A DNA stretch of 60,643 bases from a virus. Position numbers and translations under genes: made by a program. The notes below the pieces were generated by a model that was not told where the DNA came from, ran no database searches, and saw nothing but the letters and a program-made list of their open reading frames with translations. Positions 4,189 through 35,574 of the stretch are shown here, in pieces (positions within the stretch are counted from its first letter, which is position 1; the number at the start of each line of letters is the position of its first letter). The DNA lies in the IMG/VR virus record IMGVR_UViG_3300042261_000916, positions 1 through 60,643 of that record; one strand, 5' to 3'.

Positions 4189-4545
4189 ATGAAAAACTAT
4201 GCTAATTTTTTAAATGAAGGAGAGATAAGAAGAGAAGGATTTTTCTCTATAAGGCAACTATCTCAAAAGTATGGAAATTTGGATCAATCACTATTGGCTG
4301 TTTATAAAAAGATAAAAGGCAAAGTGGTACAATTTACTCCTTTAGAACGCAATAAACCAGTATGGACTGAAATAAAAGAAGTATATTATAAAAGATATGT
4401 CAGAGAAGATGGGAAATTGGGGAATTTGTGGTTTTTTATAAACAAAAGTGGAAAAGAATTTCAATTGAATATAAATGATGTTATGCAAACATATGCTAAA
4501 GTAAATGAATTTGATCCTTATGGTGAAGAAGATTGGGAAAATTGA
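4189..4545 (+). CDS. Head-cargo candidate: N-terminal targeting-like signal plus C-terminal DPYGEEDW tag
   Basis: 118 residues from the ATG at 4189. An in-frame ATG at 4144 lies in the terminator region and is rejected. The N-terminus MKNYANFLNEGEIR resembles the T4 capsid-targeting sequence with a predicted cleavage after Glu (FLNE/G). The middle looks like a small beta barrel (KGKVVQFTPL...WTEIKEVYYKRYV...LWFFINKSGKEFQLNINDVMQ). The protein ends with DPYGEEDWEN. No enzyme motif was seen. The coding sequence for the tag overlaps the next gene in another frame, and the junction may be a frameshift (see findings). Confidence 0.7.
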   Translation: MKNYANFLNEGEIRREGFFSIRQLSQKYGNLDQSLLAVYKKIKGKVVQFTPLERNKPVWTEIKEVYYKRYVREDGKLGNLWFFINKSGKEFQLNINDVMQTYAKVNEFDPYGEEDWEN

Positions 4546-4996
4546 TGAATCTTGGACAAAGATAACAAAAAATAATCTCGAAGAACTTGAGATTGGTAGA
4601 AGAATCAGGCAACCTATACTGGGAGAAGGTGAAATTATTTTTGTTCGAGAAGACCGTAATATAGTTAAAATTAAGTTTGATGAAAAAGGAGAAAAAGATA
4701 TAAGAGTGGATGTTGTCGAATTAGAAGTAAAAGATAAAATAGAACCAATTGATAATAAGAAAATTAAATGGTTCAAAAAAGGAAAATTCGAAAAAATGAA
4801 TAATTTGATGAGTTTTAATACATATATTAAAGAAGAATATATGTATAGACATGATCCTTCTACAAAGGAAGATAGAAGTAAAAAACAAAGAGAACATTTT
4901 ATAAGTAAACTTTCTAAAATGGGAGAACCTATAGATGAACTTGAAAAAATGGATATTGCTTCTCTTGGTAGGTTATTAGCAAAAAAGAAAAAATAA
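4505..4996 (+). CDS. Small barrel protein, start uncertain, possibly the frameshifted continuation of 4189-4545
   Basis: The first codons (ATG at 4505 or 4520) lie inside the tag-coding region of the upstream gene in a different frame, so the first 15 residues are only an out-of-frame reading of the tag. Real similarity to other proteins starts around DESWTKITKNN. Residues about 30-70 look like an SH3/KOW-type barrel (IRQPILGEGEIIFVREDRNIVKIKF). KIKWFKKGK near residue 90 matches a WF-x-KGK motif in three other proteins here. An internal ATG at 4809 gives MSFNTYIKEE, almost the same as the N-terminal signal of the gene at 7530, so a separate small gene may begin there. Composite or decayed gene. 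Confidence 0.5.
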   Translation: MNLILMVKKIGKIDESWTKITKNNLEELEIGRRIRQPILGEGEIIFVREDRNIVKIKFDEKGEKDIRVDVVELEVKDKIEPIDNKKIKWFKKGKFEKMNNLMSFNTYIKEEYMYRHDPSTKEDRSKKQREHFISKLSKMGEPIDELEKMDIASLGRLLAKKKK

Positions 4997-4999
4997 AGC

Positions 5000-5578
5000 A
5001 TGGATAAACTATCTTTGTTATTAGAACAAAAAGAAGAACCTATTGTCCTTTTAGATTTTCCTAATCAAAGACAAGGTACTAGATATTATTGTGGAGTTGA
5101 TTGCGTAGAAACAGTTTTGGCATATTATGATATAGATGTCAGAGAACAAGATTTAGCTACAATATTAGATGCTGATCCTAAAAATGGAACCAGCATAGAA
5201 AGAATGGTAAAATTCATATCTATGCAAAGAGGACTTCAAGTAGAATATAGACAAAACATGACAATAAATGATTTGAAAAAATATCTAAACAAGAAAATTC
5301 CAGTTATAGTTATGATTCAAGCATGGCCATCTAAAGATGTTAAAGATTGGGAAGATGAATGGAATAGCGGACATTATGTTGTAGCTATTGGATATACGGA
5401 TACAAAAATTCTTTTTGGAGATCCAGCAACTTATTATGAGGTTTCATATATTGAAAATGGTGAGTTTATGAAACGTTGGCATGATGAAGATCGAGACAAA
5501 AAATATGAGCAATTTGGATGTGCTGTTTTTGGAAGAAAACCAAAATATGATAAAAACAAATGGAAAAAAATTGATTAA
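5000..5578 (+). CDS. C39-like papain-fold cysteine peptidase
   Basis: 192 residues with the C39-type order of motifs. TRYYCGVDCVETVLAYY near residues 28-44 gives the Cys (after a Gln-rich stretch), NSGHYVVAIGY near 128 gives the His, and LFGDPA near 145 gives the Asp. C39 enzymes cut leader peptides after double Gly, and related stand-alone phage forms also exist. There is no transporter domain. It sits inside a run of putative head-cargo genes, which suggests either an injected peptidase or a processing enzyme. The start is the ATG right after the upstream stop. The 3' end overlaps the next gene by 8 nt. Substrate unknown. Confidence 0.7.
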   Translation: MDKLSLLLEQKEEPIVLLDFPNQRQGTRYYCGVDCVETVLAYYDIDVREQDLATILDADPKNGTSIERMVKFISMQRGLQVEYRQNMTINDLKKYLNKKIPVIVMIQAWPSKDVKDWEDEWNSGHYVVAIGYTDTKILFGDPATYYEVSYIENGEFMKRWHDEDRDKKYEQFGCAVFGRKPKYDKNKWKKID

Positions 5579-6217: not shown

Positions 6218-7537
6218 ATGATAATTAAAAAATATAACAACTTCTTAAATGAAGGACTAATGTTGGATTTATTCGATTTTTTACATAAATTCAATAATCC
6301 TGTTATTGCCGAAGATGAACTCCGTAAAAAAGTGATTGGTAAAACAGTAGTGTGGTATCCTGTCGGTGGAGGTTCCACGTTGAAAAGACAAACTGTTGGT
6401 GATATAAGAATTGAAGATCATAAAGTATATTTCAACGGGTATCCCGTGGATCAAGATTTTTCAATAGAAATAGAAACGACAAAACAAAGTACATCGTCAG
6501 CACTACCAACAAAGAAGACACAAGGAAGTTGGAAACAACCTAAAACTTGGGAAATTATTGGTATTCCGTCGGGGGAAGTTATTTATGTTGATACTAAAGA
6601 ATTAAATATTTTGATAACAAAAGATCTTGTTAAATATCAAAGTTATGCTAAATATAGAGACGTAGAGTACAGAGAAATTTATATTTATAGAGATGAAAAG
6701 TATCACGATATAAAAAAATTCTTAAATCCAAATTATAAGAAACCAGAAAAATCAAATTATAAAGAAAAAACTAAATATCATATAGGAGATGTCATTTTAT
6801 GTCAAGGACAATCAGCTCATTCACAAGGATATGTGTTAAATCTAGATATGAGAGTTGGTAAAATTATTGATATGTACAAAGGGCCAAAAGAAACGGAATA
6901 TAGATATTTAATTTCTTTTATGAATAATTTTGATCCACATTTAGTTAATATAGGTGGAAACATAAATAAATTTTGTTGGTGGGTCAAGAAAGAAAATATC
7001 AAAGGTATTTATACAGGAGATCTTAAATTTCTTAAAACCATATCTGATGTAATGAATTTACTACAAAAAGAAGATTATATAGAAGAACACGAAATAGATG
7101 ACGCTTATCATATAAAACAATTATTTAAAGGCACTGATGGTGCAGTAACTTATGAAAGCGTATCTATTGAAAATACAAAAACAATTAAAGTAAAAGATAT
7201 AATAGAAGGTAAATATGGAGAATTTAAGGCGTTCGATGATGGAACAACAGGAATAGAATTTAAATGTAATTATGCTGATCTATATAAAAACAATCAAATT
7301 TGGATAGGAAAATATGATTGTAATATTTTGAGATTTGAAAGTAAAAATTCACAATGGTATAATGAAAGAAATTATGTAGGCACTATAATTTTAATTAATA
7401 AATATGACACTGGGAGATCTTATATGCCATTTGCAGTCAGAATAGATGATTATGCTATAATTGGTGTTCCAAAAGAAAAGAAACAAATATTTTCTTTACA
7501 CGATCCATACGGAGAGGAGGAATGGGATAATGATTAA
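6218..7537 (+). CDS. Tagged head-cargo candidate with repeated SH3/KOW-like modules
   Basis: About 439 residues. The ATG at 6218 (MIIKKYNNFLNEG) places the targeting-like signal at the N-terminus; ATGs at 6209 and 6215 are alternatives. Predicted cleavage is after FLNE. Several strand-rich modules follow, such as GDVILCQGQ...MRVGKIIDMYKG...YRYLISF near residues 190-235, typical of small SH3-like barrels. The last residues are DPYGEEEWDND. The tag-coding DNA GGAGAGGAGGAATGGGATAATG also acts as a plausible ribosome-binding site for the next gene, whose ATG lies inside it. No catalytic motif was recognised. Confidence 0.65.
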   Translation: MIIKKYNNFLNEGLMLDLFDFLHKFNNPVIAEDELRKKVIGKTVVWYPVGGGSTLKRQTVGDIRIEDHKVYFNGYPVDQDFSIEIETTKQSTSSALPTKKTQGSWKQPKTWEIIGIPSGEVIYVDTKELNILITKDLVKYQSYAKYRDVEYREIYIYRDEKYHDIKKFLNPNYKKPEKSNYKEKTKYHIGDVILCQGQSAHSQGYVLNLDMRVGKIIDMYKGPKETEYRYLISFMNNFDPHLVNIGGNINKFCWWVKKENIKGIYTGDLKFLKTISDVMNLLQKEDYIEEHEIDDAYHIKQLFKGTDGAVTYESVSIENTKTIKVKDIIEGKYGEFKAFDDGTTGIEFKCNYADLYKNNQIWIGKYDCNILRFESKNSQWYNERNYVGTIILINKYDTGRSYMPFAVRIDDYAIIGVPKEKKQIFSLHDPYGEEEWDND

Positions 7538-8876
7538 GAAATTCAACACATATATAAAAGAAAGTGATCAATGCTTTTATCCATCTGGCGATAGAATAGA
7601 AGTTGATGATATTGTAATATATAATATTACATCGAATACTCATCCAAATCTTAGATGGTATGATAGAAAATTGGCGATAATAACTGATATTGACAATAGT
7701 TATTTTAGTGGTGAATTTCCAATATCTATAAAGTTTATAGATGGAAATTTAAATTTGAGAGTAAATAAAAATTCTGTTAAAAGATATTCTAAATCCAAAA
7801 TAGATCCTTATAATGAAGAAGATTGGCAATTTAACGAAAAAAAAATAATATGTGAAGCAGATCCATATGGTGAAGAAGATTGGGATGTTCCAACAGTCGA
7901 CGGTCCAATTAATATTGGAGATAAAGTTAGAATAATTGATAAAAACAACGCTGCATATCAAATTCAATATCGTGATAGAGAAGTATTTACTAATAGTATG
8001 TTGAGTTATGATATTGAAGTTTTAGATATGTGGGAAACAGATGGCGGTAAGATTATTATAAAAGGAGATAATTTAAATTACTATGATGCTAGTAAATTTA
8101 AGAAATTACAAGAAAGTATTATAGAAGAAATTGAAATGGAAACTCCTCCAAGTATTTGCGGAGAAGATTATATAGAAGAATACGAATGCACCTTAAAAGA
8201 TAGATATAGAAATATTAAAACCGGTGAATTAAAGAGACTTGAAGAAATATTCGAAATACCAGCAAATTATTATCATGAAAAATATGTTGGAGTTTGGGAT
8301 GTTAATGGTAAATTTAAGATAATGAATTATATTAGACCTAATTGGTATCACGAATTTACAATAGATAATAAATTGAGATTTATAGAAAAGAATTTTAAGA
8401 GTAAATCGAGTCAAGTAGAAATATGTGTTGGGCCAGAGATAGAAAAAATAATGATAAATCATAAAAAGGGATATGAAGGTAAGGGTAAATATTATAACAT
8501 GAAAAACACCAATAGAGTAACAATAGATAAACAAAATATCAAAATTTGCAAAGTGTATAAATATTGTGAAGATTTTCGACTGATATTTGGTGGTAGAATT
8601 GTAGATGTTATAAATAATATATATCCGGAAGGTAAAGAAAAAGATCATTTCAAAGTTCCAGATAGATTTGATAGGTATAAAAGTTTGAATATAACAATAG
8701 GGGATTATTATTTATTGAATTTTGAAATAAAAGATTATGTAAAAGGAATATATAGAAATTATAGAGTGAATATGTTTGATACTATAAAATGCAGACCAAA
8801 AATTAAAAGAATCAATCCAGTCAACGATCCTTACGGTGAAGAAGATTGGGGTGATGAAATGATGTATGAGGATTAG
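7530..8876 (+). CDS. Tagged head-cargo candidate with three DPY[GN]EEDW copies
   Basis: 448 residues from the ATG at 7530 (MIKKFNTYIKES), chosen because it gives the N-terminal signal and follows a purine-rich GGAGAGGAGG. Residues 18-85 form an SH3-like barrel (VDDIVIYNI...KLAIITDID...PISIKFIDG). This is followed by two tags close together (DPYNEEDW, then DPYGEEDW after 14 residues). A second barrel starts at INIGDKVRIID. The long middle is unrecognised. The protein ends DPYGEEDWGDEMMYED. The first tag differs at Gly to Asn. Overlaps the next gene by 11 nt. Confidence 0.65.
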   Translation: MIKKFNTYIKESDQCFYPSGDRIEVDDIVIYNITSNTHPNLRWYDRKLAIITDIDNSYFSGEFPISIKFIDGNLNLRVNKNSVKRYSKSKIDPYNEEDWQFNEKKIICEADPYGEEDWDVPTVDGPINIGDKVRIIDKNNAAYQIQYRDREVFTNSMLSYDIEVLDMWETDGGKIIIKGDNLNYYDASKFKKLQESIIEEIEMETPPSICGEDYIEEYECTLKDRYRNIKTGELKRLEEIFEIPANYYHEKYVGVWDVNGKFKIMNYIRPNWYHEFTIDNKLRFIEKNFKSKSSQVEICVGPEIEKIMINHKKGYEGKGKYYNMKNTNRVTIDKQNIKICKVYKYCEDFRLIFGGRIVDVINNIYPEGKEKDHFKVPDRFDRYKSLNITIGDYYLLNFEIKDYVKGIYRNYRVNMFDTIKCRPKIKRINPVNDPYGEEDWGDEMMYED

Positions 8877-10827
8877 AAGATTAAATGAAGCTAAAGATCC
8901 TTTTAAGGATTTGAGAGATTATAGTATAAATTATATCTATGAAAGTAATTCACATGTCCTTGATAAAATTAAAATTACTTATATCGGATCTTATAAACGT
9001 TATAAAAAAAGAGAAACTAGATGGTCTGGGAATTTATATGAACCAGGAGAACCAATTGTTCCTACTTTCTCGCAGTATAAAAAATATTTAAATAATTTAT
9101 TTGTTAATAAACAATTAATATTTGTTCATTTTGATAACGATAAAGGCACATCATTTTTAGTGAAAACTAAAATAAAAGGAATTTCTATAGATAAAGATGG
9201 ATTTATAAAAAAATTAAAAGATGATGCTAGAGAATATATTTTCGATGATAGATTGGAAACAATTGATGTAGAAAAATATATTAATTTATTGAAAAATTTA
9301 ATAGGACAAAATATAAGTTTTAATAAATATTTATATCGTAAAAATCATAAAGATGTATTTGTAGATGATTTTCAATTGAAAAGAATTTATCAAAATAAGG
9401 ACGGTGAAATTATTTTTGAAAATGAAGAGGGAGAATCTTGTCATGTAAATATATTTGATCCTATATGTAAACGTGTAATTTTTACACCGGAAGATCCATA
9501 TGGTGAGGAGGATTGGGATATTAATGAGGATTACGAAGTAGATAAGAATAGATTAAGACAAATAAAATTTATAGGAGGCGAAGAATTAATAGATGTTATA
9601 ACAACGGGCGATGTTGATTTCTTAAATAATAATTTTACTGGATGGGCAAAAATGTATCCTGAATTAAGAACTTACATTTTCCATGTTATAAATTGGGAGA
9701 TAGACCCTAACGATAAAGTAAGATTTACTTATGATGGTTATATTCATGGCGAGTCTGTTAAAATTAATATAGGACCATCTAATTACGTATTAAAGAAAAC
9801 ACCAGAATTAACTATAACAATGTTTGAAGAAAAAGAACCAACAATTATGATAAATGAAAAAGATCCTTATGGAGAAGAAGACTGGAGCGAATATATGGAA
9901 AATGCGTCTTATCCAGATCCAGATCCTCTTAAAATGAGACACACAAACAAATCGTTAAGACATTCAGAAATAAGTGATATAAAGAAACAAAAAAATGTTA
10001 AAATACTCAACGACGAATTTATTGGATGGATAAGAATATTGCCTGAACTATTTGATTATTTTCTACATGTGGTGGAATGGGGAATAAGTGACGGTGTATT
10101 ATATACCAAATATGACGGATATGTTAACGGTCTGAAATTTGTTAGAAATTCAAGTGTTTATACTTATACATTAAAAGACTCAGAACAAATGATGATAACT
10201 GTTGTGGATGATGGAGATCCATTAATTAGAATAGATGATATGGATCCATATGGTGAAGAGGATTGGGATTATGAAGTATTTGAACAATTCTATGATAACG
10301 ATGACGATGTTTATGTGCCTATAAAATCTAAAGAGGAAAAGATGGCAGATATTAAAAGATCTTTGAAAAAGAATACAAGTGAATATCAAAGATTTGATCA
10401 ATATTTATTATTTGATAGACTTGGATTAGAAAGACTCGAAATTCTAAGAAATTTTTTAATAGGAAAAGTCATTGTAGTAGAACAAAACAATAAGAAAAAA
10501 ACTAGAACTAAAGGAAGAGTTTACGAAATTCGCTCAAGAAAAGTTGAAGACGAACAATTTTATCTAATAAGAATGGTAACTAAAGAAGGAGAAATTGAAT
10601 TATTTATACAAGGAAAAGATAGATTCAAAGTTAAAAGTCTAAATATTCCTAAAGTTACTATAGATCCTTACGGTGAAGAAGATTGGGAATTGATTGGTGA
10701 TATACCAGATGAACCTAAGAAAGAAGAAAAGAAAAAAACTACAAGTAAAAAAAGATATTTTAGTAAAGGCAAAGCTTGGATAGCTGATGATGCACCAATG
10801 GCAATTGCTAAACCAAAAAGAGTATGA
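8866..10827 (+). CDS. Tagged head-cargo candidate with four tags and a duplicated domain-plus-tag unit
   Basis: 653 residues. It starts MRIRRLNEAKD, a short version of the N-terminal signal with a predicted LNE/A cut. Tags lie at about residues 207, 333, 464 and 603. Between tags 1 and 3 there are two related segments of about 90 residues: NNNFTGWAKMYPELRTYIFHVINW... and NDEFIGWIRILPELFDYFLHVVEW.... Each continues with YDGY[IV]xG, a YxLK strand and MIT[MV], and ends in the tag, so the tag behaves as part of a repeating module. The C-terminus has KKRYFSKGKAW, a variant of the WFxKGK motif. No enzyme signature was seen. Confidence 0.65.
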   Translation: MRIRRLNEAKDPFKDLRDYSINYIYESNSHVLDKIKITYIGSYKRYKKRETRWSGNLYEPGEPIVPTFSQYKKYLNNLFVNKQLIFVHFDNDKGTSFLVKTKIKGISIDKDGFIKKLKDDAREYIFDDRLETIDVEKYINLLKNLIGQNISFNKYLYRKNHKDVFVDDFQLKRIYQNKDGEIIFENEEGESCHVNIFDPICKRVIFTPEDPYGEEDWDINEDYEVDKNRLRQIKFIGGEELIDVITTGDVDFLNNNFTGWAKMYPELRTYIFHVINWEIDPNDKVRFTYDGYIHGESVKINIGPSNYVLKKTPELTITMFEEKEPTIMINEKDPYGEEDWSEYMENASYPDPDPLKMRHTNKSLRHSEISDIKKQKNVKILNDEFIGWIRILPELFDYFLHVVEWGISDGVLYTKYDGYVNGLKFVRNSSVYTYTLKDSEQMMITVVDDGDPLIRIDDMDPYGEEDWDYEVFEQFYDNDDDVYVPIKSKEEKMADIKRSLKKNTSEYQRFDQYLLFDRLGLERLEILRNFLIGKVIVVEQNNKKKTRTKGRVYEIRSRKVEDEQFYLIRMVTKEGEIELFIQGKDRFKVKSLNIPKVTIDPYGEEDWELIGDIPDEPKKEEKKKTTSKKRYFSKGKAWIADDAPMAIAKPKRV

Positions 10828-11648
10828 AAGATTCTGTAATAAAAATAGAAGGAAGAGAACTCAAACCTTACGTTTGGAATTTATACAATGGACATAAGAC
10901 CAATGATATAGATTATTATTATACTCGTATGATGGAATCTGGTCTGAAGACAGAAGAAATAGGAAACATAGATGGATTATCAATGTTCCTTGTACAAAAT
11001 GATCACGAAAAAGGAAGACCAAACATTTTTATTATGGGAGGAGTTCACGGTGAAGAAACCGCCGGCCCTTGGGGAATATTGAATGTCATGATGAAATTAA
11101 AATTGATGAAGGTCAACGTAAATCTTTCTTTTATTCCTATATTCAATCCATATGGATTTAGTAAAGGTTTAAGATTTAATGGACAATTAAAATCTGTCAA
11201 TTCTGGGTATTTTAGAACTAAATCTGGAAAACAAGAATTAACTACAGAGGGTGTTATTTTCCAAAGAAACTTTATTAGAATTTGTGAACTCGCAAAAAAT
11301 GGATTTCTTTCTTGTCACGAAGATACAGACCAGGAGAATTTCTTTATTTATGAAGTTCACCATGATGCTAAACCAAGTTTTATTTGTAGAGAGTTACAAA
11401 CTATAGGATCTTATTATTTTGGTAAACAGAAAGATGGTGCAGTATATACTGGTGTTGTGAAAGATGGTGTTGTATTAAATGAAAAAGATGGAACAATAGA
11501 TGATTATCTTGTTAATGTTGGTAATATTCATAGAGCAATAACAACAGAAACTCCAGGTAAAGCTGATATTAATAAGAGAGTTTATGTTTATGAGCAAATC
11601 ATAACAAAATTCATAGAAATGTATAGTGCAGGAAATTTTTGGGAATGA
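10824..11648 (+). CDS. M14-type zinc carboxypeptidase/deacylase-like enzyme
   Basis: 274 residues. IFIMGGVHGEETAGPWG near residue 72 contains the HxxE zinc-binding pair of the M14 / succinylglutamate desuccinylase superfamily. A later FLSCHEDTD near residue 158 supplies the third ligand His, and ITTETPG near 238 fits the region of the catalytic Glu. The IFNPYGFSKGLRFN stretch fits the Asn-Pro substrate loop of the family. It probably removes a terminal residue from a peptide or acyl-amide, perhaps in cell-wall peptide. Start ATGA overlaps the previous stop. No tag or targeting signal. Confidence 0.75.
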   Translation: MKDSVIKIEGRELKPYVWNLYNGHKTNDIDYYYTRMMESGLKTEEIGNIDGLSMFLVQNDHEKGRPNIFIMGGVHGEETAGPWGILNVMMKLKLMKVNVNLSFIPIFNPYGFSKGLRFNGQLKSVNSGYFRTKSGKQELTTEGVIFQRNFIRICELAKNGFLSCHEDTDQENFFIYEVHHDAKPSFICRELQTIGSYYFGKQKDGAVYTGVVKDGVVLNEKDGTIDDYLVNVGNIHRAITTETPGKADINKRVYVYEQIITKFIEMYSAGNFWE

Positions 11649-12352
11649 TAACGAAATTTATTAAATATAACGAAAATAAAAAACTTAGTGAAGATGATAT
11701 AGTAATCTTCCATTACGGTATTGTTCCTGAACATAGAACTCCAAATCCGACATTAAAACCTTATGATAAAAAGCCCGCTACGATTTTAGTCGCCGATTAT
11801 AGTGAATATCCAACAGTAATAGGAAGTCCTTTCTTAATAAGATTTATAGAAGATGGTAAAAAGGCTTGGGTTAATAGAGAATCTATAACTCCACATAATC
11901 CAAAAATAATAGTATCTCCTATAGATCCTTATGGAGAGGAAGATTGGTCTGTTGATGATGAAGATATAATTAAAGAAAAACTTAATTTTTTTAAGAAAAA
12001 GAAAAAAGCAGAACATGATTTTTCAGTTCATACAGAAGTCAATTTCATACCAAGAAACGATGGTGTTTATTATTTTCAGGCAGGATTGAACAGGATAAAT
12101 GATCATATGGGAATAGGTGAAGATCAATTCGGTAAAAAATGTAAAATTGTTAGAATATACGATGGATATTATGAAATTAAATTCGATAATCTCAAATATT
12201 CTTATACTTGTCGTATTGACAACTTATTGCCTTTGGATTTTTCTAAACATATTGAAAGAAGGAAGGAAATGTTGAATCTTCACAAGGATGAAGATCCTTA
12301 TGGTGAAGAAGTGTGGGAGAGTAATTCTGAAAATATTATCTATATAGATTAG
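11645..12352 (+). CDS. Tagged head-cargo candidate with two tags and two barrels
   Basis: 235 residues from the ATG at 11645 (MITKFIKYNENKKL, N-terminal signal-like), overlapping the previous gene by 4 nt. A first SH3-like barrel (EDDIVIFHYG...PATILVADY...FLIRFIEDGKKAWVNRESI) closely parallels the first barrel of the protein at 7530 and leads into DPYGEEDW at about residue 97. A second barrel (CKIVRIYDGYYEIKF) leads into DPYGEEVWES near the C-terminus. The barrel-then-tag order appears twice in one protein. Function unknown. Confidence 0.65.
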   Translation: MITKFIKYNENKKLSEDDIVIFHYGIVPEHRTPNPTLKPYDKKPATILVADYSEYPTVIGSPFLIRFIEDGKKAWVNRESITPHNPKIIVSPIDPYGEEDWSVDDEDIIKEKLNFFKKKKKAEHDFSVHTEVNFIPRNDGVYYFQAGLNRINDHMGIGEDQFGKKCKIVRIYDGYYEIKFDNLKYSYTCRIDNLLPLDFSKHIERRKEMLNLHKDEDPYGEEVWESNSENIIYID

Positions 12353-13406: not shown

Positions 13407-13407
13407 C

Positions 13408-17053: not shown

Positions 17054-17686
17054 TTAAATATTGAATATATTTGCGTTAGGATCAAATAATTCCCTAGTTT
17101 TCGTAAACATTCTTTCTAAATCCATATTCTGTTTTTCTATATCTCTTTCAGATAATTCTCCATTCGACTCATCTTCCCATTCTTCTTCGCCGTATGGATC
17201 ATTCTCAGAATAAACTCTTTTAATTTCTTTAATCTTAAATGGTGGTTTAATACTACCATAAAATGATGGAACATGATCTTCGAGATCAAGCAGGTAGCGA
17301 ACATGGTGTATTACAAGATTTTTGTCTTCTATGGTATTTACTCCATGTCCATCTCTTTTTAATGTATTAAATCTATGTTCTCTTAATATATTTGTTAACC
17401 AATCATAATCTAGTTTATCTATTTCTAATCTAAACATTGGATCTCCATCTATTCTAGAGAATCCAATAAATTCAATCCAGTTTATTCTTTCTTTTCCACC
17501 GTTATGTTTATTTTCAAATAATTTAGGTTCAGCTTCTCCGTCTCTATCAAGAAGAATGAAACTTCTTCTTGATATTCCACCTAATTGTTCTTTAATGTCG
17601 AAATATTCTAATTGTTCACGAATATTTTTCCTAAATTGAGCAGCTTTACCTTTCCAATCTAATGATATTTTTATTATTGTTGCCAT
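17054..17686 (-). CDS. Tagged protein of the minus-strand operon
   Basis: 210 residues from the ATG at 17686 (MATIIKISLDWKG). A longer frame reaching 17746 overlaps the upstream tag gene and is unlikely. The extended tag EIKRVYSENDPYGEEEWEDE lies at about residues 155-174, leaving a 35-residue helical tail (FTKTRELFDPNANIFNI). The upstream part contains strands (RSFILLDRDGEAEPKLF, NWIEFIGFSRI) but no recognised domain. The KR-hydrophobic-[YF]-S-E run before the tag recurs in the genes at 1507, 20657 and 34705. Confidence 0.6.
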   Translation of the reverse strand: MATIIKISLDWKGKAAQFRKNIREQLEYFDIKEQLGGISRRSFILLDRDGEAEPKLFENKHNGGKERINWIEFIGFSRIDGDPMFRLEIDKLDYDWLTNILREHRFNTLKRDGHGVNTIEDKNLVIHHVRYLLDLEDHVPSFYGSIKPPFKIKEIKRVYSENDPYGEEEWEDESNGELSERDIEKQNMDLERMFTKTRELFDPNANIFNI

Positions 17687-17687
17687 A

Positions 17688-18170
17688 TTAATTATCCCAA
17701 TTTTCTTCCCCGTATGGATCAAGTACAGGTATGAACTTTTGACCAACTGGTTTTATATCTTTTGTGAAATTTTCTAAATAACAAACTAATCTATTTAATC
17801 TTTCTTTTTTTGCTTCTAATCTTCTAGATATTTTTTTATGCCTTTCTATTCTTCGGCTTGTCATAAATAAATATCCTGTAAATTTACGATTAGAATCTTG
17901 TAGTTCTATAAATATATCTCTTAATTCCATTGCTATAACATTATAGGAATCGTAAATCTGACGGCTATTCGCTCCATATTCACCACGTATTGCTTTGGTG
18001 CTTATAGGTTGTAATTTATCAGCAATCACACGAATTGAATCAGATATAGAATCATATCTATCTTCAGTTTGCCTGTTTCTATAATGTCCTTGAACAGTTA
18101 AAATATAAAAGGGGAACTTGAAATAATTTTTGAAACTATTCCATTTCCTTTTTATGTCATTCCATTTCAT
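17688..18170 (-). CDS. Tagged helical protein
   Basis: 160 residues. Two long amphipathic helical stretches (SISDSIRVIADKLQPI, then RRIERHKKISRRLEAKKERL) suggest a helical bundle or coiled coil. The C-terminus is PVLDPYGEENWDN. No enzyme motif. It is followed after 1 nt by the next tagged gene. Could be a scaffold or core-type component. Confidence 0.6.
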   Translation of the reverse strand: MKWNDIKRKWNSFKNYFKFPFYILTVQGHYRNRQTEDRYDSISDSIRVIADKLQPISTKAIRGEYGANSRQIYDSYNVIAMELRDIFIELQDSNRKFTGYLFMTSRRIERHKKISRRLEAKKERLNRLVCYLENFTKDIKPVGQKFIPVLDPYGEENWDN

Positions 18171-18194
18171 TTTTATTTAGATTAAAAGTCTATA

Positions 18195-18527
18195 TTATTC
18201 CCAATTCTCCTCTCCATATGGATCTAATTCGTTATAAACTCTTGGTTTTGGATTATACACATCTTCTAAAACATTACTCATAAGATTTTTAAATCCTCTT
18301 GGTTTGCCTCCCATGATAATGGGAGTTTTATTTAACATGTGTTTTTCATAACTATCTGTTTTAATTATTCCAACGCAAAAATCACTCAAGCTAGCTCTAG
18401 TTATGGAATCTTGAATATCTTGATTCGATATTAAATCGGTATAATCTACAATATAAGGATTATAGAAAATATCTTCTTTCCCTGATGGAACTCCTTGATT
18501 TGATGTTATTATAGGCAAATTATTCAT
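18195..18527 (-). CDS. Small tagged protein
   Basis: 110 residues from the ATG at 18527 (MNNLPIITSNQG), which overlaps the end of the previous tagged gene by 8 nt; an upstream in-frame ATG at 18554 is less likely. The protein ends NELDPYGEENWE, so the tag is exactly C-terminal. The rest (NPYIVDYTDLISNQDIQDSI, MGGKPRGFKNLMSN) shows no recognised family. Confidence 0.6.
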   Translation of the reverse strand: MNNLPIITSNQGVPSGKEDIFYNPYIVDYTDLISNQDIQDSITRASLSDFCVGIIKTDSYEKHMLNKTPIIMGGKPRGFKNLMSNVLEDVYNPKPRVYNELDPYGEENWE

Positions 18528-18870
18528 CCCATACCTCTTCTTCAAATGGGTCAATACTTTTTAAATTTTTCCTTATGGCTCTTACTTTATCAGGATCATC
18601 TATAAAATCATTTAGTTTCTTTTCTAATAATTTTATTAATTTCTTGCTTTCTTCCAATTCTTTTTCTAATTGATCTATCTTATCGCTACTGGTATAAGCC
18701 TTGTATGTTGTTGAATATTGATAATCATTCCAACTAGTATCTGTTCCAGTGGTTGTTGTTGACCAATATGATATTCCAGCAGTGATTGAGCTTCCTGATG
18801 TTGATGAGGTGCCACTTTTAGTGGTATAACCTATATACACATTATCTTTATATGTACCTAATTTTTTCAT
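18520..18870 (-). CDS. Ser/Thr-rich coiled-coil protein with divergent tag DPFEEEVW
   Basis: 116 residues: a low-complexity Ser/Thr/Gly/Tyr-rich N-terminal half (TTKSGTSSTSGSSITAG), then a coiled coil at about residues 62-92 (IDQLEKELEESKKLIKLLEK), then DDPDKVRAIRKNLKSIDPFEEEVWDE. The order of coiled coil, then [DN]DPD, then a basic stretch, then tag is shared with the protein at 20875-21798. This is the most divergent tag in the window (Tyr to Phe, Gly to Glu). It suggests which positions tolerate change. Confidence 0.6.
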   Translation of the reverse strand: MKKLGTYKDNVYIGYTTKSGTSSTSGSSITAGISYWSTTTTGTDTSWNDYQYSTTYKAYTSSDKIDQLEKELEESKKLIKLLEKKLNDFIDDPDKVRAIRKNLKSIDPFEEEVWDE

Positions 18871-18872
18871 AA

Positions 18873-19016: not shown

Positions 19017-19029
19017 AATGATTCCTCCT

Positions 19030-20654: not shown

Positions 20655-20656
20655 AA

Positions 20657-20887
20657 TTAATTCTCCCAACATTCTTCGCCATAGGGATCTAATTCGCTAA
20701 AGACTCTTTTGATCTCTTTGGTGTTTTTATTGTTTATATAATTTTCTAGATTTTCTAGAATGTTTCTATTAATCTCCTCAGTTAGAATTTTTTCAAGCCT
20801 TTCGCTAATATCTATGCCAAAAGATTTTAGATCTTCTACTTGTTCTCTTGTAAATTTACAATTTAATTGTCTTTCTATCGTTCCCAA
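20657..20887 (-). CDS. Small tagged protein
   Basis: 76 residues: a helical N-terminal part (REQVEDLKSFGIDISERLEKIL) and the extended C-terminal signature EIKRVFSELDPYGEECWEN. It is among the smallest tagged proteins, so the tag makes up about an eighth of it. The [EL]IKRV[YF]SE lead-in matches those at 17054 and 34705. It overlaps the upstream tagged gene by 13 nt. Confidence 0.6.
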   Translation of the reverse strand: MGTIERQLNCKFTREQVEDLKSFGIDISERLEKILTEEINRNILENLENYINNKNTKEIKRVFSELDPYGEECWEN

Positions 20888-21798
20888 TTTTCTTCGTCGT
20901 AAGGGTCTAGTTCCTTACGACGTTTATATTCATCAGGATCATTTTCGATTAAATTAATTTTAGCTTTTAATTTTTTATTATCGTTTTCTAGATTGTTTAT
21001 TATAAACTGAAATCTCTTTTTCTCTCCATCGTGATTCTTAACAAAGGCAGTATTCCTTTTTTCTAATTCGGATATTTTCTCCCAAAGTTTGCCTATTTGT
21101 TTATCTTTTTCGTCTATATCTGATTTACTAAGAGTGAATGTTTTTGTTGTAAAATTGGTTTTTGGTTCTGTTGTTTTAGATTTTCCAGAATCCCAACCGG
21201 GGTATTCCCACCAACGATCATCATTCCATTGTGTACCAGTTTCACTCGGAGTTGATGTTTTTCCAACACCTTTTGGTTGATCAAATATATTTGGATGTTT
21301 TTCATTCCATTCCTTTTCAGTGTACCTACGATAAATATCAGTCCACTCTGTACTCGAATATGTTTTTTTATCGCTTTCTTCCCAATCTTTTTCTGCTTTT
21401 TCTAATTTTTGTTTAATTTCCGACCAATAACCTTCTTTTTTCTCACTATCTTTCCAATCCTTCTCTGCTTCTTCTAATCTTTTCCTTTCTTCTCCAGATA
21501 ATTCTATTTTCTTTTTATTACTGTTGGTCGCGACCTGATTTTGCCACCAATATTCAGATTCGGGCATATATATTCCAGCAGTCTTTAATGGGACTTTCAA
21601 TTCGGGAGAATCTGTATTTTTAATAAAATCATAACCTACTTTTTTTTCGGGCAATTTCTCACCATTTAGTTCTTTGAACCAAGATGGTAATTTATCAATA
21701 AAAGCCGGTTTACTTTCAGGTTCTTTTTGTTCTTCTTCTTTTTTTGGATGAAGATATGGTTCTTTTTCATCCAAAGTGGTTTCAATTTCTTCATTCAT
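20875..21798 (-). CDS. Tagged charged coiled-coil protein (scaffold-like)
   Basis: 307 residues from the ATG at 21798; an in-frame TTG at 21807 is ignored. It is highly charged, with a repeat of about 30 residues rich in EKDWKDSEKK / AEKDWEESDKK near positions 110-150, a Trp/Gly/Thr-rich middle, and a coiled coil near 235-290 (QIGKLWEKISELEKR, FIINNLENDNKKLKAK). It ends KELDPYDEENWER (Gly to Asp in the tag). This composition is typical of phage core/scaffold proteins such as T4 gp22, but there is no sequence match I can name. Confidence 0.6.
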   Translation of the reverse strand: MNEEIETTLDEKEPYLHPKKEEEQKEPESKPAFIDKLPSWFKELNGEKLPEKKVGYDFIKNTDSPELKVPLKTAGIYMPESEYWWQNQVATNSNKKKIELSGEERKRLEEAEKDWKDSEKKEGYWSEIKQKLEKAEKDWEESDKKTYSSTEWTDIYRRYTEKEWNEKHPNIFDQPKGVGKTSTPSETGTQWNDDRWWEYPGWDSGKSKTTEPKTNFTTKTFTLSKSDIDEKDKQIGKLWEKISELEKRNTAFVKNHDGEKKRFQFIINNLENDNKKLKAKINLIENDPDEYKRRKELDPYDEENWER

Positions 21799-30523: not shown

Positions 30524-31036
30524 ATGATTCTAGAGTTCAATAAATTCGTATCTAAACAGAAGATATACCTTGATATGGATGGTGTTTTGTGTAATTTTTT
30601 AAAAAAATTCGAAGATCTAACTGGTGAAGATTTTGAAGAATATGCTGATGAAAACGGGTGGAGTAAAACATGGAAATTAGTAGAAACTTTTGGTGTTGAA
30701 TTCTGGAGTGAACTAGAATGGATGAATGGTGGTAAAAAATTATGGAATTACTTAAAAAATTTAGATAATGTAGAAATTCTAACTGGATCACCAAGAGATA
30801 AAGTTGGTGAATATGCACAATTAGGTAAAGAAATATGGATAAAGAAAAACATTGGAAATATAAAAGTTAATCATATAGAAGGAAAATTAAAATACACCTA
30901 TGTCAAAAATAATGATATTCTAATAGACGATAGTAAAAGAAATTGTGCTTTATGGGACGCCGCTGGAGGAATATATATTCTACATAAAAATACAGATCTC
31001 ACAATAAAACAATTAAAAGAATTATTAGAAAACTAA
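30524..31036 (+). CDS. 5'-nucleotidase, HAD-type deoxyribonucleotidase
   Basis: 170 residues. KIYLDMDGVLCNF near residue 12 is HAD motif I (DxDGV), VEILTGSPRDK near 85 is motif II (Thr/Ser), and DILIDDSKRNCALW near 130 is motif IV (DD). This pattern fits the 5'(3')-deoxyribonucleotidase family, which dephosphorylates dNMPs and balances dNTP pools. The N-terminus MILEFNKFVSKQK resembles the targeting-like signals but lacks a clear cleavage Glu. It has its own promoter and terminator, so it is a single-gene unit. Confidence 0.8.
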   Translation: MILEFNKFVSKQKIYLDMDGVLCNFLKKFEDLTGEDFEEYADENGWSKTWKLVETFGVEFWSELEWMNGGKKLWNYLKNLDNVEILTGSPRDKVGEYAQLGKEIWIKKNIGNIKVNHIEGKLKYTYVKNNDILIDDSKRNCALWDAAGGIYILHKNTDLTIKQLKELLEN

Positions 31037-31109: not shown

Positions 31110-32267
31110 ATGAACAATATACAAACATACGAAGATTTTTTAAATGAAGGAATAATATCTGATAAATTCAAAGAGAAATTTAGCAAATTGTGGAATAATT
31201 TTCAATATAAAGAAGAAGTAACAAGAAAATTATATAATTTTCTTAGAGTTGGAAATATTCCTTTCACGCTCTTATATCTGGCTTTGTTATGTAATCATTA
31301 CTGGCCTAAATTTTTAGGAGCAGATATAAAACATTTTTTTGATCCAGCTTTTAACGGTATGATAATGGTAACATTGTATTTAATTTTTCAAAGTAATTAT
31401 GTTTTTAATATTTTAAGAGATAAAGTTATTAAAAAAGAATTGAATAGATTAAGAGAAAAATTCCACGATGGAAATATATTCTTAGTATTAGGAGATAAAT
31501 CCAATATAGATAAAGCTATAGCCAAACTTAAAGAAGATGGAATTATAAGTGATGAACACATTATTAATGAATTTGGTAGATGCATAATTGATTTTTCTGG
31601 TAGAGCCAATATAGATAAAGAGGAACATTATAATGTAGATCCTTATGGTGAAGAAGATTGGAATGATAATGGGGCTGAAGATGAAATGACCTTAACTGGA
31701 AGAAGAAATTTAGCACATATATTAGAACCTATATACGGAGTAAGATTCAGAAAAATAACAGACGAATTCGATTTATTTTCTAGAACATTATTAAGTTCTA
31801 GTGGAAGAGATAAAGAACAAGATCTCAGATATTATAATCAAGGAGTAGATGAATTTAGAAGAAGAAATGATCCAGCTCCAGCCCCAGATCCAAATTTAAA
31901 TTTAAATCATAATATTATTCCAGCTGGAGAACATTTTGAGGGCGAGGTAGTAAACATGAATGGAGCTAATTGGGAAGTCATGGGTGTTGATGAATTAAAT
32001 GGTGAAATGGTAGCTTTGATTAGAAGAATGCAACCGGGTGAAGAAATACCAGAGCAAGATCAGGGTATAGAAATACCAGAACCAGAAATTGATCAAAATG
32101 CACAACCGCCAGCACGTAATGCTGAATACTGGAAAAATATGGGATTTGACGACGTGGAAGATTTAGAAGATGGGAGAGTTGCTGTTAAAGTTAAAAAGCC
32201 AAAAAGAAAGATATTAAATTATAATAATTTTGTAGTGCCTGGATTTGATAAAAACTACCTGAAGTAA
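31110..32267 (+). CDS. Tagged head-cargo candidate with membrane segments
   Basis: 385 residues. The N-terminus MNNIQTYEDFLNEGIIS is among the best matches to the targeting signal (FLNE/G). Two hydrophobic segments lie at about residues 50-66 (IPFTLLYLALLCNHYW) and 83-101 (NGMIMVTLYLIFQ), so the mature protein could insert into a membrane after injection. The DPYGEEDW tag is at about residue 175. A Pro/Asp/Glu-rich linker follows (DPAPAPDPNLN), then two similar segments (GEVVNMNGANWEVMGVDELNGEMVALI and AEYWKNMGFDDVEDLEDGRVAVKV). A membrane-active injected protein is a reasonable guess. Confidence 0.65.
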   Translation: MNNIQTYEDFLNEGIISDKFKEKFSKLWNNFQYKEEVTRKLYNFLRVGNIPFTLLYLALLCNHYWPKFLGADIKHFFDPAFNGMIMVTLYLIFQSNYVFNILRDKVIKKELNRLREKFHDGNIFLVLGDKSNIDKAIAKLKEDGIISDEHIINEFGRCIIDFSGRANIDKEEHYNVDPYGEEDWNDNGAEDEMTLTGRRNLAHILEPIYGVRFRKITDEFDLFSRTLLSSSGRDKEQDLRYYNQGVDEFRRRNDPAPAPDPNLNLNHNIIPAGEHFEGEVVNMNGANWEVMGVDELNGEMVALIRRMQPGEEIPEQDQGIEIPEPEIDQNAQPPARNAEYWKNMGFDDVEDLEDGRVAVKVKKPKRKILNYNNFVVPGFDKNYLK

Positions 32268-32274: not shown

Positions 32275-32856
32275 ATGATAGTAACATATAACGAATCTTT
32301 ATTTTTTAAATCTTTTGAAGAAAAACTTAAAAAGATAGATGATCTTCTAGTTAAATTAGAAATGGTTAGACAGATGGTTGGTGGTTATTATAAAACATGG
32401 GCTGAAGATAAAAATAGAAAAAATTTAAGAAAATTAAATAATAATTATGAAGGATATTTTGCTATAAGACAAACAATTATAAAAAAATTTATTAAAATAA
32501 TAAAAAATGATGATTTGAATCAAAATGATATTGATGAAGTTATTTTTAGATGGAAAGAATTTGAGAAAAATTTATCATATGGGTCTTATAATATTCAAAT
32601 GTTAGCAGGTTATCATTATGCTGAAATGATTATAGGATCTTTGAACAATTTTCTTAAAAGTTTATCAGATTTAAAAAAAGAATTTAATGTGGATTGTGAT
32701 ACAGAAGATAAATTTGTTTTATCTCCAATTGTGGATGATAAATATGTTCCATTAAGAAGATTAGTTCATAAAGTAAGAATGGAAAAAATGAAAAATTCAC
32801 ATATAAATGAAGATCCTTATGGAGAAGAAATTTGGGAAGATGAAGAGAATAAATAA
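32275..32856 (+). CDS. Tagged helical protein
   Basis: 193 residues, almost all helical (FEEKLKKIDDLLVKLEMVRQ, then RKLNNNYEGYFAIRQTIIKK). It ends INEDPYGEEIWEDEENK. The N-terminus MIVTYNESLFFKSFEEK is only loosely similar to the targeting signals. The helical pattern parallels the first part of the next protein (SFERYLDDIDDLFLLYEE...), so the two may be distant paralogues. Overlaps the next gene by 17 nt through its tag-coding sequence. Confidence 0.6.
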   Translation: MIVTYNESLFFKSFEEKLKKIDDLLVKLEMVRQMVGGYYKTWAEDKNRKNLRKLNNNYEGYFAIRQTIIKKFIKIIKNDDLNQNDIDEVIFRWKEFEKNLSYGSYNIQMLAGYHYAEMIIGSLNNFLKSLSDLKKEFNVDCDTEDKFVLSPIVDDKYVPLRRLVHKVRMEKMKNSHINEDPYGEEIWEDEENK

Positions 32857-33772
32857 ATATGATAAATTCAACGAGGGTTTGTTTACAAAAAATCCTAAAA
32901 AATCATTTGAGAGATATCTAGATGATATAGATGATTTATTTCTTTTATATGAAGAATCTAGTGGAAAATCCATTCGTAATAAATACGCCAATAAAGTTTA
33001 CGATAGTTCGGAAAGAGGCGACTATTTGGCAAAATCTGTAAATTATATGGCAAGAATAACCGACAAATTGGACGCTATCTTAATGGAACACGGTAGAAGA
33101 ATGGATCAAGAAATGATGGATAGGTTTGTTAAGAGATTCAATGCAGTTGGTCAGGCAATAGTTGGCACTGGATATATTCTAAAAAATTATAATGATTTAA
33201 ATAAAGTCAGAGATAATATGAACGCCATATTAAATTTACTTGATCATATTAGAAAATTTTATGACTTAAAAGTTGATGTTGACGAGAAAAAATATAACAA
33301 TCCTCTTGTATTCTGGAAACACGAAGGATTCTTTTATACTGTGCATAAATCATTCGCTGATAAAAAAGATAAAGAAGCAAAAGAGTTACACGCTAATGTA
33401 GATCCTTATGGTGAAGAAGATTGGGGGGATGAAGAACCAGCGAAAAACGAAGGAGTTAAATGGTATAGAGGAGGAGATTTAGGTGATGAGGAAAATATAG
33501 AAGTAGAAGAGCCTGATTTTATTACTAATTATTATTTCAGACAATTTTTAATAGAAAATGGGATATATGAAATTTATATAAAGTATTGTAGTCGTAAAGA
33601 TGATTTCAAATCGTATTTTACAAATGAAGCTGGAGATATAATAAATACAACTCTTTCGTGGGGGTCAACTCCTGTACCTGGTGGAGGAAGAGACATTGAG
33701 TTCTGGGAAAGAATGAGAAATAAATGGAGAGCTTTTTATAAAAAAAATAAAGATATAGTAGATGGCAAATAA
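32840..33772 (+). CDS. Tagged head-cargo candidate with WYRGGD/WFSKGK-type C-terminal domain
   Basis: 310 residues from the ATG at 32840 (MKRINKYDKFNEGLF), which gives a signal with an FNE/G cut; a frame opening at 32807 only covers the upstream gene's tag. A helical half of about 180 residues comes first, then the tag DPYGEEDWGDEEP near 195. Then comes GVKWYRGGDLGDEENIE and a domain matching the C-terminus of the protein at 5571 (DFIT, [FY]-FRxFLI-[DE]N, YxxYI, DF, FWERM). Here the tag separates two domains. Function unknown. Confidence 0.65.
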   Translation: MKRINKYDKFNEGLFTKNPKKSFERYLDDIDDLFLLYEESSGKSIRNKYANKVYDSSERGDYLAKSVNYMARITDKLDAILMEHGRRMDQEMMDRFVKRFNAVGQAIVGTGYILKNYNDLNKVRDNMNAILNLLDHIRKFYDLKVDVDEKKYNNPLVFWKHEGFFYTVHKSFADKKDKEAKELHANVDPYGEEDWGDEEPAKNEGVKWYRGGDLGDEENIEVEEPDFITNYYFRQFLIENGIYEIYIKYCSRKDDFKSYFTNEAGDIINTTLSWGSTPVPGGGRDIEFWERMRNKWRAFYKKNKDIVDGK

Positions 33773-34433
33773 AATATCAATTAGAGATATAGAAAATGCC
33801 ATTAAACAATCAATGGCTGGAAGTGAAATTCAATTCTCTGACTCAGTTTATGAAGAGAAAGATGGGAAATTACGTCTTATAATATTCTTTAATAAACTTT
33901 TTACAAAGACCAATGTTATTCTTTACACAAAACTTTTATTTGAGGTTGATCAAAATAAAGAATATCTTGTTGAAAATAGTAGTAATCAAAACTTTTTTAA
34001 ATATCTTTATGATATTAATTGTCAGTATAATATGAAAATTATTGATGATATTAATGATTTTAAGACTCAGTGGACTAAAATTATTAATGAGAATAATTTT
34101 GGACCTAACATAAAGATATTATCTGAATTTATGAAAAAACCTTCTTTTATGATAAATGAATGGTTTAGTCAAAACGGAATCAAGGATATATCTTTAACTG
34201 GGTTTAAGTATGAACCTAAAATGAAAGTAATGCCTTGTAAATTATTATCATTTCATTTCGTATTAAATGTTAATAATTCTGAAGAAATTGAATTGTTCAT
34301 AAAGAAAGAAGGAAAAAATGATTTCATTTATACATTTACTATTGATGGGGAAAATATAGATATAGAGAAAAATGATTTAAGTACTTTAGTACAAACTGTT
34401 GGAGAAACACTAAAAGATAACATTGGAAGATGA
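33762..34433 (+). CDS. Unknown protein
   Basis: 223 residues starting MANKISIRDIENAIKQS, overlapping the previous gene by 11 nt. Strand-rich (KLRLIIFFNKLFTKTNVILYTKLLFEVD, then MPCKLLSFHFVLNVNN, then FIYTFTIDGENIDI). No targeting signal and no tag, unlike its neighbours. No family recognised. The stop overlaps the next start (ATGA). Confidence 0.55.
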   Translation: MANKISIRDIENAIKQSMAGSEIQFSDSVYEEKDGKLRLIIFFNKLFTKTNVILYTKLLFEVDQNKEYLVENSSNQNFFKYLYDINCQYNMKIIDDINDFKTQWTKIINENNFGPNIKILSEFMKKPSFMINEWFSQNGIKDISLTGFKYEPKMKVMPCKLLSFHFVLNVNNSEEIELFIKKEGKNDFIYTFTIDGENIDIEKNDLSTLVQTVGETLKDNIGR

Positions 34434-34714
34434 TAAAGAATTTTCATAAATATAACGAAGAATTTAATCTTTTTGGGAAAAAGAAGCCAGAAGAGAAGAA
34501 AGATGAGAAACCAGATTGGAGAGATATGACAAAGGGCACTTGTCATGTTAAAAGTGTTAGTGATTTTTTCAATAATAATTGTGGCGGAAATGAAAACACT
34601 TTTCTACGTTATTTTAATGAAATAGTTGCAGATAAAGATATTACCATAGCAGAAACAAGAGAAAGATTTAGAGGTAGACCCCTATGGAGAAGAGAATTGG
34701 GACGATGCAGATAG
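34430..34714 (+). CDS. Head-cargo candidate whose DPYGEENW tag is encoded one frame off
   Basis: 94 residues as read. The start MIKNFHKYNEEFN is a targeting-like signal. The in-frame C-terminus is an uncharacteristic basic RGRPLWRRELGRCR. In the +1 frame the same DNA reads EVDPYGEENWDDADRI followed by a stop at 34719-34721. The +1 frame is closed by a stop at 34647-34649, so a shift between about 34650 and 34670 would restore a tagged protein of about 96 residues. It is either a one-base indel, a sequencing error or a programmed +1 shift. Confidence 0.6.
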   Translation: MIKNFHKYNEEFNLFGKKKPEEKKDEKPDWRDMTKGTCHVKSVSDFFNNNCGGNENTFLRYFNEIVADKDITIAETRERFRGRPLWRRELGRCR

Positions 34715-35574
34715 GATATAAACATAACGAACTTTGGAATGGCGGTCGTCTATCTGATGCTCTGATGAAGGATCTTAAAAGATTAACATACGGAGAAAAA
34801 GATTCTTTTTTTATAGATGAATTAAAAGGTCTAAGAAAAAAAAAGATAGCATTTCTAAAAGAAAAATTAGTTGGAAGAAGAGTAAAATTTCATACCAATA
34901 ATTTTCAATTCATAAAAGATGTTTTAAATGTTTATGGTTTTCAAGATAAATTTCCGCCTTTCAAATTTGATTATGTTTTTACGTGCAAAAGAGATTGGGT
35001 AGAAGACGATGAAATAGGTACAGATTATAAAGTTAATAAAGATTTTCCAATAACTGTCATGCCACTTATCAAAAGAGTCTTCTCTGAAGATGATCCTTAC
35101 GGCGAAGAAGAATGGGAAGATACTAGCGAGGGAATTGACTTGAAGAAATTAAATCCTTTGAGGAAATTAAAAGACATGAGAAATATCAAAATGTTTGAAC
35201 CTTTCAAGAAAGTGATAAACTCAAATGATCCTTATGGCGAAGAAATAGATGAAGAAAAATTTAAAAAAATATTTCCTATTGAAAAAATCTATATTAAAAT
35301 AGATGATATTAACAAAGTGGTTTATCTATATCTTAAATTAGAAAAAAACGATTATGTTCTTTTTGGAGAAATGAGAGAAGGGGAATTTCAATTACCTAGA
35401 AAAGATAAAGTACACAGTGATGGTAGTGATTTATTAGGACAACTTTATTCTGAAGAAAAAAAGGAAGATTGTGAGGATTGGTACAATTATTTTATAGCTG
35501 CCTTGGTAAGAAAAGATAGTACTTTTGGATTAACTTTAGATTATTTCAAATGGGTTCTTAAAATAAAATGTTAA
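34705..35574 (+). CDS. Tagged protein with one full and one Trp-less tag
   Basis: 289 residues from the ATG at 34705 (MQIGYKHNELWNGG). An ATG at 34684 is in frame, but its first codons are just the shifted tag of the upstream gene. The extended tag LIKRVFSEDDPYGEEEWEDT is at about residues 128-147. A second copy, NSNDPYGEEIDEE, 38 residues later lacks the Trp. The C-terminal 110 residues are strand-then-helix (YIKIDDINKVVYLYLKLEK). No family recognised. Confidence 0.6.
   Translation: MQIGYKHNELWNGGRLSDALMKDLKRLTYGEKDSFFIDELKGLRKKKIAFLKEKLVGRRVKFHTNNFQFIKDVLNVYGFQDKFPPFKFDYVFTCKRDWVEDDEIGTDYKVNKDFPITVMPLIKRVFSEDDPYGEEEWEDTSEGIDLKKLNPLRKLKDMRNIKMFEPFKKVINSNDPYGEEIDEEKFKKIFPIEKIYIKIDDINKVVYLYLKLEKNDYVLFGEMREGEFQLPRKDKVHSDGSDLLGQLYSEEKKEDCEDWYNYFIAALVRKDSTFGLTLDYFKWVLKIKC

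Follow-up and report, generated by a model that had tools for sequence, protein, structure and literature searches.

The stretch of DNA considered here (the window) is IMG/VR record IMGVR_UViG_3300042261_000916 in its whole length, positions 1-60,643, and it is characterized by a short peptide, DPYGEEDW (the tag; pattern DPYGEExW), which recurs in its open reading frames (ORFs), in several of them together with an N-terminal signal resembling the capsid-targeting sequence (CTS) of bacteriophage T4. Gene comparison identifies the window as part of the genome of a Mahaphage, a relative of LR756501: the window's tail sheath gene (53966-57862) is 76.6% identical, over the full length, to a gene of LR756501 and about 43-44% identical to genes of the 634-642-kb relatives. 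The Mahaphage clade holds the largest phages of Al-Shayeb et al. (2020), for which Bacteroidetes hosts have been predicted (PMC7162821). The comparison set consisted of the whole of LR756501, an uncultured phage of 735,411 bp and 1,064 ORFs used as the complete tagged reference, the tag-free 636-kb LR756504 and 19 tag-carrying IMG/VR contigs, one of which (G13) has a single, chance-like copy of the tag and was dropped from later clade counts. ORFs were called by a simple picker script rather than a trained gene finder, and all counts are approximate.

Tagged genes of the window

DPYGEE is the most frequent 6-mer of the window proteome (24 copies). It is encoded at 26 sites, 24 of them inside called ORFs and none on the wrong strand, and the exact octapeptide DPYGEEDW, written with varied codons, occupies 13 of the 26. 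For the N-terminal signal, the strict form was defined as [FY]xx[FY][ILV]xE near the N-terminus and the short form as [FY]xx[FY]xE. Five ORFs of the forward strand combine the strict form with the tag: 4189..4545 (MKNYANFLNE, then G; C-terminal tag at 4513), 6218..7537 (MIIKKYNNFLNE, then G; C-terminal tag at 7502), whose LR756501 homolog 546583 has the CTS and lacks the tag, 7530..8876 (MIKKFNTYIKE, then S; tags at 7803, spelled DPYNEEDW, at 7860 and, C-terminally, at 8826), 31110..32267 (MNNIQTYEDFLNE, then G; internal tag at 31638) and 38363..38920 (MATKKYIEFIRE, then W; tag at 38561); the LR756501 orthologs of the last two, 572243 and 578127 respectively, have both signals. The short form accompanies the tag, on the same strand, in 11645..12352 (MITKFIKYNE, then N; tags at 11924 and 12293), 32840..33772 (MKRINKYDKFNE, then G; tag at 33401) and 59894..60643 (MIKIFEQFKE, then S; tags at 60341 and 60404), an ORF that exceeds the window end. 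Proteins with CTS and tag had no Pfam match above the cut-off and no convincing PHROG match.

The first-pass annotation had counted at least nine genes with both signals, and 34430 in addition if its frame were corrected. The eight genes above, five with the strict and three with the short form, uphold it in part, and the other two of these ten drop out. The forward ORF 8866..10827 has four tags (9493, 9862, 10243 and 10663) and no recognisable CTS, its N-terminus MRIRRLNEAKD having no aromatic pair; three of its tags align with tags or with a near-tag (DPCGEEDW) of the relative L015:7050-8861, and a structure model of the protein had a predicted local distance difference test score (pLDDT) of 28 and no usable fold. 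The forward ORF 34430..34714 begins with a short-form CTS (MIKNFHKYNE, then E) and has the tag out of frame: in its last 40 bases a complete tag, EVDPYGEENWDDADRI followed by a stop (34676-34720), overlaps it in the +1 frame, the cause being possibly a real frameshift or an indel introduced by assembly at GACCCC.

Other tagged ORFs of the forward strand are 32275..32856, with DPYGEEIW as C-terminal tag at 32812 and without a clear CTS, and 34684..35574, with DPYGEEEW at 35092, a partial tag at 35227 and no CTS. CTS-like N-termini are also found on tag-free ORFs of the window (13071-13409, 16643-17053, 30524-31036, 37856-38359, 40022-40654 and 57921-58289).

Selection, range and position of the tag

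The DPYGEExW tag is confirmed as a real, protein-level and genome-wide feature, carried by about a tenth of the genes in this Mahaphage clade. LR756501 has 87 tagged ORFs among its 1,064; an unsupervised 5-mer count of its proteome put DPYGE first, in 92 ORFs, when the top unrelated 5-mer was found in 11, and chance or low complexity is ruled out as the source by the 107 copies of DPYGEE that it contains, shuffled proteomes having 0.07. The tag codons of LR756501 and of the related contig G001 differ by 33 synonymous and 0 non-synonymous changes, so the peptide is under selection; outside the tag, the tagged genes of the same two genomes have a ratio of non-synonymous to synonymous polymorphism (pN/pS) of 0.19. 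Families with tagged members number 194 over the clade contigs, and contig G007 has the variants DPFGEE, DPLGEE and DPYNEE besides DPYGEE.

The tag pattern does not occur in LR756504, LR756502, LR756500, Flavobacterium phage MaF61 and Lak-A1, nor in 17 of 18 IMG/VR contigs with related capsid genes; among these 17 is a 345-kb contig with a major capsid protein (MCP) that is 64% identical. On this distribution, the tag is restricted to a narrow clade around LR756501, and a source protein for it, sought in the tag-free Mahaphages, was not found there. Three near-identical 3.3-kb contigs (L272, L281 and L285) in metagenome-assembled genomes of Bacteroidetes encode a 96-aa ORF ending in PKRIFSEIDPYGEEDWEN near a ParB-like gene; they are probably pieces of tag-clade phages, which would fit a Bacteroidetes host. 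Across 84,980 species the pattern had 17 matches, 14 of them in lactobacilli, where the ORFs examined were enolase. The active-site loop of that enzyme, SIEDPYGEEDW, has the identical eight residues and the flank ISIE (L271-L287), yet it is part of a folded enzyme of another phylum, and mimicry of enolase was set aside as probable coincidence. In a full-text literature search the only match to DPYGEE concerned yeast peptides, and no comparable phage-wide motif was apparent in titles and abstracts, most subscription-journal papers lying outside the coverage of both searches. We know of no phage that uses one peptide tag on such a scale.

The 345 tags of the clade lie within 8 residues of the C-terminus (124), in the first 30 residues (58) or elsewhere (163), and 76 of the 124 C-terminal ones stop exactly two residues past the tryptophan, often in a longer motif like KEIKRVFSELDPYGEEDWEN. 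An SsrA-like C-terminal degron was rejected, since 221 of the 345 are not C-terminal and, in place of the hydrophobic end of such a degron, the tag has its W and then mostly acidic residues. Several tagged ORFs (L169-L170 and L139-L141, contigs G010 and G002) begin with a MKIRSGFVSNSSSSSF-like motif, which is known from many bacterial proteins of unknown function. A separate motif is seen in G007 (L160-L166), in which about 15 small ORFs at 80406-106064 end in KEE[DN]IEW plus one residue; because its codons are almost fixed, often GAGGAGGAYATAGAATGG, it looks like a Shine-Dalgarno sequence and the next start read as protein, and it is a trap for motif finders.

The targeting sequence and the pieces of virion proteins

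The internal protein IPIII of T4 carries aromatic residues at positions 4 and 7. In IPIII mutants residues 4 and 7 proved to matter for targeting and residues 8 and 10 for processing, with cleavage at L/I-x-E (PMC9026906), and the consensus of the N-termini described here, MIKKFxxYIxE, reproduces that spacing. The strict form is found within the first 25 residues of 58 of the 1,064 ORFs of LR756501 and the pattern is rarer at internal Met codons, taken as control; identification as a putative T4-type CTS is supported by these comparisons. LR756501 encodes an MCP (76415-78166; PHROG major head protein, E = 9e-23) and a gp21-type protease-scaffold of family S77 (73913-76336; PHROG head maturation protease, E = 5e-27), genes that the window does not include; in the latter the prohead protease is fused to a scaffold part of 13 tandem 14-residue units of the YxEYIAE type. 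Repeats of this type also occur in LR756504 and LR756502. The YxEYIAE core recurs in the CTS, which we infer to be an imitation of a single scaffold unit.

In LR756501, 31 ORFs carry both CTS and tag (odds ratio (OR) 4.7, p = 5e-9). When the tag labels were rotated along the gene order, co-occurrences averaged 11.2 and peaked at 24, and none of the 1,058 rotations reached 31, so that gene clustering does not account for the link; independence of the two signals, which the first-pass annotation had named as fatal to its proposal, is not what the genome displays. Over the clade contigs 49% of the ORFs with a tag and 17% of those without have a relaxed CTS, against 7.6% in the internal control, and the association persists with one random member per family (OR 4.9, p = 2e-19) and among accessory ORFs only (OR 4.9). 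The CTS share is highest for N-terminal tags (73%) and lowest for C-terminal ones (34%). Tags in CTS proteins are positioned after the CTS in 174 of 176 cases, in agreement with the earlier idea that the tag would outlast removal of the CTS. Restricted to the window, the association does not reach significance with either the strict (5/19 tagged vs 8/60 untagged ORFs, p = 0.28) or the relaxed definition (8/19 vs 13/58, p = 0.14). Furthermore, the 12 residues ahead of the tag contain a cleavage-like site, defined as [LIVFMY]xE with N, S, A, G or Q as the next residue, for 45% of N-terminal tags and 22% of internal ones, compared with 6% in a control stretch (internal tags against control, p = 5e-5), and site-to-tag distances peak at exactly five residues.

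A class that the earlier annotation had overlooked consists of tagged ORFs with pieces of virion proteins, namely of capsid, protease, portal and sheath. With the tag and its flanks masked before matching, such pieces were recognized in 31/282 tagged vs 26/2,139 untagged ORFs (OR 10; 7.5 after family collapse). Tagged ORFs match MCP residues 1-43, 52-132, 81-124, 139-300, 322-389, 434-469, 459-515 and 517-565, and also protease residues 32-157, the scaffold repeats, portal residues 259-334, the sheath N-terminus and sheath residues 1174-1262. In contig G014 (locus L180, 3648-6829) nine tagged ORFs stand in a row, most with virion pieces and some with pieces fused out of order; in one of them protease residues 143-167 are followed by an MCP N-terminal stretch (recognized by eye), a tag, MCP residues 81-124 and a second tag.

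In the window, the reverse-strand cluster 17054-21798 is a predicted operon of the same kind. Its ORF 17054..17686 (tag at 17200) corresponds, by alignment to the MCP, to a stand-alone MCP domain, residues about 139-300 of the LR756501 protein including NWIEFIGFSRIDGDPMFR, and aligns with the domain around GFSRIDGxPMFR. An AlphaFold2 model has pLDDT mostly 71-94 for residues 1-130 and about 50 for residues 141-180, and on this model the tag is probably in a flexible linker; among solved structures the domain had no relatives, by fold or by sequence. On the same strand follow 17688..18170 and 18195..18527, both C-terminally tagged (at 17720 and 18224), 18520..18870, with the C-terminal variant DPFEEEVW at 18552 and a GTSGTSG-like stretch as in the giant repeat proteins of a relative, 20657..20887, a piece of MCP (LR756501 residues 337-388; Pfam Gp23 E = 1.5e-4, below the cut-off) with a C-terminal tag at 20689, and 20875..21798, with the C-terminal variant DPYDEENW at 20907. 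Near the start of the window, on the forward strand, 1086..1505 (139 aa, internal tag at 1410) is a weak relative, at about 24-29% identity, of the MCP-derived ORFs 2093 and R542326, the former of which (2093..2806, tag at 2303) has a piece 60% identical to LR756501 MCP residues 459-515. Between them lies a prohead-protease (Peptidase_S77) paralog, 1507..1992 (C-terminal tag at 1960), which is 40% identical to LR756501 protease residues 32-157 and matches PF03420 with E = 1.8e-4, below the Pfam cut-off. The conserved SSR serine motif reads VSSRA in 81 proteases, FRSRA in 1507 and FRPRA in the LR756501 ORF 11314; because its first SSR serine is replaced, the window paralog is probably inactive, and the tagged protease paralogs have lost one or both SSR serines.

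The tag-free LR756504 has only two MCP pieces. One ORF of this phage, 472629-473165, encodes 178 aa without a tag and is a paralog of MCP residues 121-285, and the MCP-domain gene is therefore older than the tag. As for a descent of the fragments from a competitor phage, the MCPs nearest to them are mixed, and the fragments are not clearly nearer to foreign than to own-clade proteins. As further observations, in the tagged LR756501 ORF 497197-498567 (L065) pieces of the sheath N-terminus and of MCP stand beside stretches resembling, by eye, a family-B DNA polymerase, and a portal-protein segment is present in the untagged ORFs L180 108-1019, G005 76530-77516 and G016 11485-12522, preceded in the last two by a P-loop-like N-terminus (GKST-like, by eye).

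Possible roles of the tag and comparison with known systems

The reading that we prefer, with a probability of roughly 0.45, is that DPYGEExW is a linear docking motif for mainly head-destined or head-derived proteins that share one common receptor. The T4-type CTS would bring one subset of tagged proteins into the prohead core, where the prohead protease would then cut it off after [LI]xE, leaving the tag, usually just past the cut or C-terminal, exposed on the mature protein; a second subset would consist of pieces of MCP, protease-scaffold, portal and sheath joined to the same tag. In both, the tag would bind a common receptor that holds or recruits the tagged proteins; packaging, cleavage, a single receptor and its site of action are all steps that we infer. 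A head-related role is favoured because CTS, cleavage-site spacing and head-protein pieces converge on it. Several results weigh against it. The CTS is missing from 51% of tagged ORFs, and a large share of all tagged ORFs offer neither CTS nor cleavage-site spacing nor head pieces; where the only tag is C-terminal (112 ORFs), CTS, virion piece and membrane helix are all lacking in 48. Small membrane proteins are among the tagged ORFs and tail proteins among the sources of the pieces, both of which fit the head poorly; a search for the receptor among clade-specific genes gave 56 candidates and singled out none. In addition, tag copies share the over-represented codon spelling GATCCTTACGGTGAAGAA, which suggests that the tag spread partly by DNA copying. 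Since about three quarters of CTS ORFs are also without tag, the one two-address system first proposed does not describe the whole set. More tentatively, the tag may define a client system in which one receptor reads DPYGEExW on about a tenth of the proteome, including packaged effectors and mosaics of the phage's virion proteins, with one rule for cargo and for decoys or inhibitors.

A strong if less probable rival is that the tag is a general docking signal in the infected cell, directing proteins to a hub, an assembly site or a membrane-linked factory apart from packaging, and that it coincides with the CTS because fast-changing accessory genes readily acquire both. The tagged ORFs without CTS, about half of the total, and the tags on membrane proteins and tail pieces would fit this, as would the lineage-specific nature of tagged genes, 13% of which match tag-free Mahaphages compared with 22% of untagged ones; however, the CTS link seen among accessory ORFs alone and the preferred spacing of tags behind cleavage-like sites speak against it. 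The tagged virion pieces could instead be decoys or dominant-negative inhibitors that mimic conserved parts of MCP, protease, portal and sheath and thereby occupy host sensors of phage proteins or spoil the assembly of competing phages, with the tag passing the complex on to a shared handler. Such targets matter, as shown by bacterial systems that sense MCP (CapRel; PMC9712102) or tail tube (DSR2; PMC11087589), or that block phage tail assembly (PMC10884400), and the nine-ORF operon of G014, mostly mosaics of conserved MCP, protease or sheath segments, and the tagged protease paralogs without conserved serines have the expected character. Yet decoys would account for about 11% of tagged ORFs only, and neither the mixed affinities of the MCP fragments nor the age of the MCP-domain piece, which predates the tag, points to them, making this improbable as the general explanation. 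Least credible of all is a selfish or nucleotide-level element, that is, a mobile coding insert or a protein-level reading of what is the next gene's ribosome-binding site. The founder codons common to tag copies, gain and loss of the tag among homologs (34 mixed families) and the Shine-Dalgarno-like GAGGAG, present in 23 of the 108 C-terminal tags and in 4 of the 180 internal tags, agree with it, but the absence of amino-acid changes beside the 33 silent ones largely refutes it and rules out mobile DNA alone. Moreover, 180 of the 288 DPYGEExW copies are not C-terminal and serve no next start, and the fixed DPY half belongs to no ribosome-binding site; a ribosome-binding-site artefact was consequently rejected for the tag as a whole and kept as a side role for some C-terminal tags only.

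The CTS half of the proposed docking scheme is already known from T4, in which IPIII, IPII, IPI and Alt, processed by gp21, have a similar N-terminal sequence of 10-19 residues with the same aromatic spacing and an I/L-x-E cleavage motif (PMC9026906); LR756501 likewise has a protease of the gp21 type and a capsid protein of the gp23 type. The Mahaphage set differs in being much larger (the 58 strict cases), in including a shortened form of the CTS and in having the DPYGEExW tag, which is not described in the T4 literature examined. The cargo-loading peptides of encapsulins are short, often C-terminal, and recruit unrelated proteins to an HK97-fold shell. The likeness to such shell binding is one of analogy, as DPYGEExW has another sequence and is also internal and repeated. 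In phiKZ and SPN3US many inner-body and ejection proteins are processed by a gp21-type protease and packaged with the DNA, though these phages belong to another lineage and the portions of the reports consulted mention no shared peptide tag (PMC9026906; PMC7411985).

Most genes of the largest phages are without known function, and a selected tag common to dozens of genes that are otherwise unrelated gives a handle on them, since sequence alone suffices to predict which proteins are tagged. Provided that the CTS proteins with a tag are packaged, they would make up a list of the proteins that the largest known phage lineage is likely to inject. A separate puzzle is posed by the tagged mosaics of capsid and protease segments, which may bear on defence evasion or on competition between phages.

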